This document shows, one piece after another, positions 4,530-52,479 of a DNA stretch of 64,000 bases. The notes under the pieces are model-generated. The model saw nothing but the letters and a program-made list of their open reading frames with translations. It had not been told where the DNA came from and made no database searches. Position numbers and translations under genes: made by a program. The stretch's first letter is position 1; each line of letters starts with the position of its first letter. Where the stretch lies: NCBI RefSeq assembly GCF_001281175.1, contig NZ_KQ440396.1:1-64000 (forward strand). The letters are read 5' to 3'. The DNA is from Apilactobacillus apinorum (GTDB lineage Bacteria; Bacillota; Bacilli; Lactobacillales; Lactobacillaceae).

Positions 4530-4780
4530 ATTTAATAGTCGAAGTAAATTGTTGATACGAAGTATTAGATTAATTATATTTTTCAGAAACTAAATGGTTG
4601 TTGCGAATTTAGATTATGATTAATCGAACTAGTCGTTGAAATCTTAATTGAAATGGATAGTAGGTTAAGACGTATTCCGCGTTAAGGACTTAAGTTGCAT
4701 CTATATAAAAATAGATGAAAATTAGGTGGTACCGCGGTATATTCGTCCTATAAGCATATATAGCTTATAGGACTTTTTTT
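4530..4780 (+). promoter_or_regulatory. T-box leader of leuS
   Basis: The conserved T-box sequence AGGTGGTACCGCG is at 4724-4736. It is followed by the terminator hairpin GTCCTATAAGC/GCTTATAGGAC (4745-4772) and a T-run. A hairpin CATCTAT/ATAGATG lies before the T-box sequence. Uncharged tRNA-Leu should stabilise the antiterminator. A possible specifier codon is CTA at 4629-4631, but I could not fold Stem I with confidence. Confidence 0.92.
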
Positions 4781-50033: not shown

Positions 50034-50062
50034 TTGACAATTGTGGTCACAATATTGATAAT
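50034..50062 (+). promoter_or_regulatory. thrS promoter with an inverted repeat in the spacer
   Basis: TTGACA (50034-50039), a 17-nt spacer and GATAAT (50057-50062). The spacer contains ATTGTG-GT-CACAAT (50040-50053), a 6-bp inverted repeat that could be an operator. Confidence 0.75.
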
Positions 50063-50310
50063 AAAGACAGTTAATAAAAGACATGATTTTAATAATTAAC
50101 ATTCAGGGAGGAAGCACATTTGCTGGAAGTGTTTCTATGATTATTATTAAAGTTACCACTTTTATTCATTAGGCAGAGGAAAATTCTGACACGGGTTGTT
50201 TCGTTATCAACTTTTATGAGGCTCGTATATTGATGTATATGAGTAGAATTCGGGTGGAACCACGTTTATTTTGACGTCCCTAGTATCTTAGGATACTGGG
50301 GGCGTTTTTT
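50063..50310 (+). promoter_or_regulatory. T-box leader of thrS
   Basis: The T-box sequence GGGTGGAACCACG is at 50252-50264, and the terminator hairpin (GACGTCCC, AGTAT with ATACT, GGGGCG) with its T-run is at 50273-50310. The likely specifier codon is ACC (Thr) at 50155-50157, in the context AAGTTACCACTTTT. The leader together with its promoter fills the 330-nt gap between dnaI and thrS. Confidence 0.92.
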
Positions 50311-50347: not shown

Positions 50348-52291
50348 ATGGCAAAAATTTCATTTGAGTTTCCTGATGGAAGCATTAAAGAATTTGATCA
50401 AGGTGTAAATACAGAAGATATCGCTAAATCAATTTCAATTAGTTTAGCTAAAAAATCTGTAGCAGGTAAAATCGACGGAGAAATGGTTGATATTGATTTA
50501 CCTTTAGAAAAAGGTGGAAAAATTGAAATCGTTACAAAAGATTCTGAAGATGGTTTGAAGGTATTACGTCAAACTGCTGCTCAATTATTAAAAGCTGCCT
50601 TAGCAGATCAATTTAATAACATTCAATTTGGTGAAAGTACTGCAAATGACGATGGCTTCTTTGTTGATACAGATAAACGCGATAGCCAAGTTAGTGCTGA
50701 TGAATTACCACTAGCAGAAGAACGTATTAATAAGATGGTAAAAGACGACGTTAAAATTGAAAGAAAAGTATTATCACTAGATGATGCACTAAAACAAGTT
50801 GATGGAGATCCATACCAAGCTAAGTTAGTTAACGAAATGGCTAAAGATGGTGAAGTTGTATTCTACCAAATCGGTGATTACCTAGGTTTAGGTGAAGGGG
50901 TTGTATTACCTTCAGCTAAAGCAGTTAAAGAATACAAACTTCTTTCAGTTGCTGGTGCATACTGGGAAGGTAAATCTTCTAACCCAATGTTACAAAGAAT
51001 TTTTGCAACGGCATTCTTTAAGAAAGCTGATTTAGAAGAAGACCTAAACAGACGTCAAGAAGCCAAAGAAAGAGATCACAGAGTTATTGGTAACAAACTA
51101 GACCTATTCTTTGTTGATCCTAAAGTTGGTGCTGGTTTAGCTTACTGGATGCCAAACGGTGCTACTATCAGACGTGTTGTTGAAAGATACATTATCGATA
51201 AAGAATTAGCTAATGGATACCAACATGTTATTACACCAGTGCTAATGAACTTAGATGCATACAAAACTTCAGGTCACTGGCAACACTACCGTGAAGACAT
51301 GTTCCCACCAATGGACATGGGTGATGGTGAAGAACTTGAATTAAGACCAATGAACTGTCCAAGTCATATTCAAATCTTCAAACACCACATTCGATCATAC
51401 CGTGAACTACCAATGAGAATTGCTGAATTAGGAATGATGCACAGATATGAAAAATCTGGTGCTTTATCAGGACTACAACGTGTTCGTGAAATGACATTGA
51501 ATGATGGTCACACTTTCTTAACTCTAGAACAAATTCAAGATGAATTTAAGAAGGTTTTAGGTTTAATGGTTGAAGTATACAAAGACTTCGATATTAAGAA
51601 CTACCACTTCAGACTAAGTTACAGAGATCCTAAGAATACTGAAAAGTACTTTGATGATGAAGAAATGTGGAACAGATCACAATCAATGCTTAAAGGTGCT
51701 ATGGATGATTTAGGATTAGATTATGTTGAAGCAGAAGGTGAAGCCGCATTCTACGGTCCAAAGCTTGATGTTCAAACATACACTGCAATGGGTAATGAAG
51801 AAACACTATCAACTATTCAATTAGATTTCATGTTGCCTGAAAGATTTGGTTTAAGCTATGTTGGTGAAGATGGTCAAGAACACCGTCCAGTTATGATGCA
51901 CCGTGGATTAGTTTCAACTATGGAAAGATTTATTGCTTACCTAATTGAAGTATACAAGGGTGCATTCCCAACTTGGTTAGCTCCAAAACAAGTAAAAGTA
52001 ATTCCTGTTAGCATGGAAAAATACGGTGACTACGCTAAAGAAGTTAATGATAAGTTAGCATCTCTAGGTATCCGTACTAGTGTTGATGACAGAAATGAAA
52101 AAATGGGTTACTTAATCCGTGATGCTCAAACCAACAAGATTCCATACACAATCGTTGTTGGTGAAAATGAAAAGAATGCTAATGAAGTATCAGTTCGTAA
52201 ATATGGTGAACAAGATACTGTAAACATGAGCATTGATGATTTCGTAAAAGAAATTCAAGCAGACATTAATAACTACTCAAGAGAAAAATAA
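50348..52291 (+). CDS. thrS: Threonyl-tRNA synthetase with a degenerate editing site
   Basis: ThrRS charges tRNA-Thr. The domains are TGS (1-62), N2 editing-type (about 63-220), class II catalytic (240-535) and anticodon-binding (540-647). The catalytic core is intact, with [33 protein letters not shown] and [12 protein letters not shown]. The editing domain has normal length, but its signature residues are gone. The HxxxH motif reads Q75-T-A-A-Q79, and the CxxxH motif reads G182-E-G-V-V186. In E. coli ThrRS these are H73, H77, C182 and H186, needed to hydrolyse Ser-tRNA(Thr). The surrounding segments ([23 protein letters not shown]) are well conserved, so the domain is not missing, only stripped of catalysis. 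Confidence 0.97.
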
Positions 52292-52334: not shown

Positions 52335-52479
52335 ATAACGAAAAAGCAGAAGCATCCCGCTTCTCGCCTGAGTTATCGTTTAAAGATGGCTAGGCATGAT
52401 ATCGGTTTAACCCTTAAAATGTTTTTAAGGGACCAAAAGCGGGTACTCAATTGTGGGCTCCCGCTTTTTTCTGCTTTTT
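52335..52479 (+). promoter_or_regulatory. infC-rpmI-rplT leader, attenuator of L20-leader type
   Basis: The leader ends in a terminator. AAGCGGG (52437-52443) pairs with CCCGCTT (52460-52466), followed by T residues. The same AAGCGGG can instead pair with an identical CCCGCTT at 52356-52362, and AAAAAGCAG (52341-52349) can pair with CTGCTTTTT (52471-52479). Leaders in this position in Firmicutes bind ribosomal protein L20 and terminate transcription. The assignment to that family is from position and layout. Confidence 0.82.

Follow-up and report, generated by a model that had tools for sequence, protein, structure and literature searches.

Replacement of the editing-site residues of threonyl-tRNA synthetase in Apilactobacillus apinorum and in most sampled Lactobacillaceae

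Editing by threonyl-tRNA synthetase (ThrRS) is a textbook fidelity check. The thrS gene of Apilactobacillus apinorum, found in the stretch of 64,000 nucleotides analysed here (the window), encodes a ThrRS in which the residues that hydrolyse Ser-tRNA(Thr) appear to be replaced, and it raises the questions of whether the loss is genuine, how far it extends and how the cell deals with serine on tRNA(Thr). An earlier note on this DNA offered three possible consequences, namely tolerance of Ser-for-Thr mistranslation, a separate trans-editing protein, or a ThrRS with tighter discrimination at the activation site.

The thrS Gene and Its Editing Site

In the window, thrS is preceded by dnaB and dnaI and followed by infC and rplT. 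The features of the locus are listed below.

50061..50284, + strand: T-box leader of thrS (54.4 bits, E 5.3e-11; under the Rfam gathering score of 93)
50348..52291, + strand: thrS, threonyl-tRNA synthetase, 647 aa, open frame (TIGR00418, 650.7 bits against a cut-off of 383.65)
50369..50536, + strand: TGS domain of ThrRS (residues 8-63), above cut-off
50540..51019, + strand: N2 editing domain of ThrRS, degenerate (residues 65-224, E. coli 63-224)
50570..50572, + strand: Q75 (codon CAA) replacing catalytic H73, global alignment with E. coli ThrRS
50582..50584, + strand: Q79 (codon CAA) replacing H77, same alignment
50891..50893, + strand: G182 (codon GGT) replacing catalytic C182, same alignment
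50903..50905, + strand: V186 (codon GTA) replacing H186, same alignment
50924..51019, + strand: C-terminal N2 segment (residues 193-224), conserved while other parts of N2 relax
51326..51955, + strand: class II synthetase core of ThrRS (residues 327-536), zinc residues C337, H388 and H518 present
51989..52261, + strand: anticodon-binding domain (HGTP) of ThrRS (residues 548-638), above cut-off

With its TGS, class II core and HGTP domains all above cut-off, the protein is a bacterial ThrRS, and its match to the tRNA_SAD model (PF07973) is 17.6 bits, under the 24-bit cut-off. The global alignment with ThrRS of E. coli K-12 has 230 identities in 636 aligned positions. Where an editing-proficient N2 domain carries HxxxH and CxxxH, the window ThrRS has QQ and GV. 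Further replacements (V106 for Y104, Q157 for K156 and G180 for D180) fall on positions that we take to be residues of the ThrRS editing site. The replacement of four catalytic N2 residues, claimed in the earlier note, is thus borne out, as a MAFFT alignment again gave H73Q, H77Q, C182G and H186V and the codons are the same. In E. coli ThrRS, the kcat of editing is reported to be 7000-fold lower in H73A, 70-fold lower in H186A and more than 500-fold lower in C182A/S (PMC4041444).

The source genome (1,460,240 bases in 9 contigs, 96.57% complete) holds one ThrRS at E <= 1e-90 and no second thrS, and at 96.6% completeness its sole ThrRS lacks the catalytic residues, as expected of a naturally editing-deficient enzyme. 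The QQGV combination is common to all 16 genomes of the genus of the window and to 10 loci titled Apilactobacillus, which come from overlapping genomes, and therefore it is no sequencing error. The identical residues in the 16 genomes, together with dN/dS values far below 1, also rule out a pseudogene.

Two other editing sites encoded in this genome are retained. As the earlier note stated, the editing motifs of LeuRS are still present in the window (VFTTRPDT and [17 protein letters not shown]), and AlaRS has HTATH and CGGNH. Other RNA features of the window include a cluster of ten tRNA genes (12-968) with a SAM-III riboswitch after it (1049-1134), a T-box upstream of leuS (4543-4753), and an L20 leader between thrS and infC (52338-52476), whose 58.7 bits are exactly the gathering score.

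Distribution and History in the Lactobacillaceae

ThrRS at E <= 1e-90 was found in 395 of the 397 family genomes searched, from which 126 ThrRS rows (125 genomes, 40 genera) were picked by rank and genus and read at the editing site. The site is degenerate in 98 of these rows (97 genomes, 32 of the 40 genera), and 93 of the 98 lack all four residues while the other five retain H73 alone. A second type of site, HHDL (H73, H77, D182 and L186), occurs in 25 rows from seven genera (g2, g7, g8, g31, g33, g43 and g53; loci L109-L111, L166-L180, L182-L184 and L188-L191). The intact HHCH site was seen in three rows, all of one genus (g34; L159, L162 and L164). Outside the family, HHCH is present in 16 of 16 genomes examined from eight other families of the same order and in 37 Streptococcaceae loci. 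All 43 named loci, several of which duplicate the coded genomes, are degenerate and belong to Apilactobacillus, Companilactobacillus, Dellaglioa, Lacticaseibacillus, Lentilactobacillus, Levilactobacillus, Loigolactobacillus, Paucilactobacillus, Pediococcus, Secundilactobacillus and Ca. Gallilactobacillus, and some are filed as Lactobacillus. Mapping the loss over the Lactobacillaceae, as the earlier note had proposed, therefore gave a family-wide pattern with two altered site types, and the loss is old and not peculiar to the organism of the window. Because one genus keeps HHCH and seven have a constrained altered site, editing is still of consequence to some members of the family.

Some ThrRS of the family also differ in domain layout. 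The TGS domain is missing from all nine rows of g3 (L102, L143, L149, L160 and L163) and g6 (L103, L154, L155 and L161), which are open frames of 600-625 aa in two degenerate genera. Two ThrRS at E <= 1e-90 (L149 and L160) were found in a single genome of the 397, G072, and both are degenerate and without TGS. In another g3 genome, G017, thrS has moved away from the dnaI-infC site.

The loss was also looked for outside the family. Searched with a profile of intact N2, which is blind to a change of the HHDL kind, 243 of 249 Bacilli had a best match at E <= 1.4e-66, and in a sample of the phylum 22 of 398 genomes had no match or an E worse than 1e-50. Re-inspection covered 29 poor or borderline genomes, made up of 17 of those 22 (five were left out) and 12 others; eight of them have HHCH, one has only the C and the H, six have fragments without N2, and 14 have no match at E <= 1e-30. 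Among genomes readable for N2, that is, aside from these 14, the six fragments and the five others, no second case of loss outside the Lactobacillaceae was found. Four genomes (G434, G486, G714 and G781) are 98-99% complete and have no ThrRS match at E <= 1e-30, which may reflect a gap in the assembly, masked sequence or divergence of the enzyme.

A single clade holds all degenerate rows in the tree of the ThrRS core (88/54; 92/89 in a second tree); it is sister to the HHDL genera plus g34, in agreement with a single ancient loss. The PolA+LeuRS tree, built on two markers, of which LeuRS is itself a synthetase, and with the long-branched G024 omitted, disagrees with that topology, since the HHDL genera and g34 are nested among degenerate genera and a degenerate clade is rejected (p-AU 0.014). 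The reverse topology test on ThrRS was borderline (p-AU 0.057), and g34 is grouped with the HHDL genera by both trees. Either the site was lost several times, or it was lost once and an ancestor of the HHDL genera and g34 received an intact gene. In most HHDL and HHCH members thrS lies distant from polA. Replacement of their gene at a new locus is unsupported by its location, since the HHDL genus g8 and the degenerate genera g52 and g44 have thrS in the same cluster (mutM-coaE-dnaB-dnaI-thrS-infC-rplT); the gene may have been replaced in place. From their place in the tree and from genome size, the seven HHDL genera are probably the former Leuconostocaceae.

The HHDL site is invariant in 17 rows at H73, H77, Y104, K156, D182, G184, G185 and L186, as would be expected if the site still functioned and aspartate had taken over from cysteine. 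Judged from sequence, this invariance would suit an oxidation-proof hydrolytic centre of two histidines and one aspartate, which may hold a metal and may edit. It is a tentative and rather doubtful suggestion that the proofreading site of the family met two fates, in which most genera gave it up and kept N2 as a scaffold and seven rebuilt a site free of cysteine.

State of the N2 Domain and the Fate of Ser-tRNA(Thr)

The earlier note described a selective loss of catalysis, not decay of the gene, between conserved flanking blocks. Catalysis does appear to be lost from an otherwise working gene, but most of N2 is relaxed. At comparable identity of the catalytic domain, N2 identity is 0.672 for 48 pairs of intact outgroups, 0.666 for the HHDL group and 0.385 for 67 pairs of the degenerate group. 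The motif blocks themselves have diverged in the degenerate group, with mean pairwise identities of 0.45 at positions 63-82 (0.77 in intact outgroups) and 0.28 at positions 178-192 (0.84 in intact outgroups). Only the last 32 positions of N2 (193-224) have held, with identities of 0.78-0.84, and escape the relaxation. Of 27 N2 columns conserved to at least 90% in the degenerate group, 20 lie at 194-223 and none at the listed editing-site positions, and the positions of Y104, K156 and D180 are variable. The dN/dS ratios, to be read with dS near saturation in several comparisons, are 0.06-0.15 for N2 and 0.02-0.06 for the core in three degenerate genera; with dS likewise close to saturation, they are 0.050 and 0.046 in Streptococcus and 0.06-0.10 for N2 in three HHDL genera.

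The AlphaFold model of residues 1-240 of the window ThrRS has a pLDDT of 94.2 and the fold of N2, with TM-scores of 0.89 to 1nyq and 0.88 to 1qf6 (both ThrRS) and 0.81 to the E. coli editing domain 1tje. Weaker Foldseek matches, at ranks 7-16, are chains of the mitochondrial ribosome (TM-score 0.70-0.75), presumably mL39, which we take to be homologous to the N-terminal region of ThrRS. This protein likewise has a ThrRS-type N-terminal fold without editing, but it is ribosomal and lacks a synthetase core. Judged from the sequences and the predicted model, the editing chemistry is gone and the N2 domain is retained. A reason may be that N2 contributes to aminoacylation, because yeast ThrRS without its editing domain is described as impaired in aminoacylation (PMC4267643).

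We consider it probable that post-transfer editing by N2 is gone from an active, sole housekeeping ThrRS, and that some Ser-tRNA(Thr) would be tolerated. The ThrRS would still activate some serine, the released Ser-tRNA(Thr) would escape hydrolysis in N2, and the cell would tolerate low-level serine at threonine codons. Such errors could be limited by the serine and threonine pools, by editing before transfer in the synthetic site and perhaps by EF-Tu, and N2 would be kept as a structural part, mainly in its C-terminal segment, that probably helps position the tRNA for charging. Both the missing hydrolysis and the tolerance are made plausible by editing mutants of E. coli (PMC4041444, PMC10057733); for C182A the growth defect is reported as small, and Thr-to-Ser exchange is called well tolerated (PMC10057733). 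Against tolerance counts the inference of PMC4787780 that selection removes a ThrRS prone to misacylation from the housekeeping role. By elimination and precedent, tolerance would be the likeliest of the three proposed consequences.

A rival account accepts the loss of N2 editing and places fidelity in the synthetic site, where Ser-AMP would be hydrolysed before transfer or serine would be discriminated against kinetically; little serine would then enter proteins, but this account seems unlikely. Yeast mitochondrial ThrRS, without N2, does have tRNA-dependent pre-transfer editing, but this by itself is reported not to prevent Ser-tRNA(Thr) (PMC4267643). The zinc triad (C334, H385 and H511 in E. 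coli numbering) is present in the window ThrRS and in all 223 rows. Across 72 degenerate, 17 HHDL and 19 outgroup rows, residues of the threonine pocket (M332, C334, R363, D383, H385, Y462, Q484, H511 and others) are identical between groups and no first-shell change was seen, which leaves the earlier idea of tighter discrimination at the activation site without an altered pocket. One nearby difference would favour this account, since the position two past the zinc cysteine is Ser in every compared Lactobacillaceae row, His in outgroups and Gly in E. coli; however, the genus that keeps HHCH has Ser too, and therefore the change is not tied to editing loss.

A deacylase acting in trans, be it a re-tooled YbaK, AlaRS or an unrecognised protein, might clear Ser-tRNA(Thr); ProXp-ST enzymes are described as hydrolysing Ser-tRNA (PMC11295145), and INS-family proteins occur in 41 of 41 genomes searched. 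The A. apinorum genome has two, ProRS and a free-standing protein that scores 155.5 bits on the YbaK Cys-tRNA(Pro) deacylase model, just above the cut-off of 153.25, whereas E. coli YeaK (ProXp-ST1) scores 45.5 bits; its PDB matches are the YbaK entries 2dxa and 1dbu, and it did not group with ProXp-ST rather than YbaK. Free-standing INS proteins also occur in outgroups with intact ThrRS. The tRNA_SAD model matches two proteins of the same genome, AlaRS and the remnant in thrS; no further tRNA_SAD protein and no AlaX, ThrRS-ed or ProXp-ST candidate was found there. Across 41 genomes, no ThrRS-ed (PF08915) scored above cut-off, and the only extra SAD match above cut-off lies outside the Lactobacillaceae (G034). 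The search that the earlier note proposed, for a second thrS or a free-standing ThrRS-ed- or AlaX-like protein, thus came out empty in A. apinorum, and its idea of a separate trans-editing protein is unsupported; we regard such a deacylase as quite improbable, and a factor may have been missed because the genome is 96.6% complete. Hydrolysis by other residues of the degenerate N2 would fit a domain that is predicted to fold, is under purifying selection and still gives a weak PF07973 match, but the absence of conserved columns at the editing site, with 20 of the 27 at 194-223, and the variation at Y104, K156 and D180 make it very improbable. The idea that cysteine-based editing is useless in peroxide-making bacteria is weakened by the HHCH site of Streptococcus and Lactococcus rows and by the cysteine kept in AlaRS.

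Known Cases and Meaning for the Family

Natural loss of ThrRS editing is already known from Mycoplasma, from yeast mitochondria and partly from Anabaena. Mycoplasma ThrRS is a bacterial case like the present one (PMC7373986, PMC4787780, PMC9976931), but in what are described as genome-reduced parasites, whereas the degenerate group here has 32 genera and genomes of up to 3.7 Mb. The minimalist ThrRS of yeast mitochondria also has no post-transfer editing and relies on pre-transfer editing only (PMC4267643), but its N2 is wholly absent, whereas that of Apilactobacillus is retained and predicted to fold. The T2 ThrRS of Anabaena is editing-impaired and produces Ser-tRNA(Thr); in contrast, it retains HxxxH and CRGPH, is impaired by an insert, and is served by an accurate second ThrRS that edits in trans (PMC4787780), whereas Apilactobacillus has one ThrRS and its editing residues are gone. 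In the open-licence literature searched, no account of ThrRS editing loss in Lactobacillaceae was found, although Melnikov 2018 and Li 2011 may list such species; within that literature, the scale of the loss and the paired HHDL fate look new.

Many Lactobacillaceae are cultivated food bacteria. Reviews associate a natural loss of ThrRS editing with bacteria that are host-restricted and have reduced genomes (PMC10057733, PMC7373986). A loss in 32 of 40 sampled genera would mean that post-transfer editing can be absent over long evolution from the only housekeeping ThrRS of a cell, and this would run counter to the inference of PMC4787780. The Lactobacillaceae would also be easy laboratory organisms for measuring the cost of Ser-for-Thr errors, with the HHCH and HHDL groups as natural controls. 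If the preferred reading of a lost and tolerated proofreading step is right, the proteins of these bacteria may contain some serine at threonine positions.
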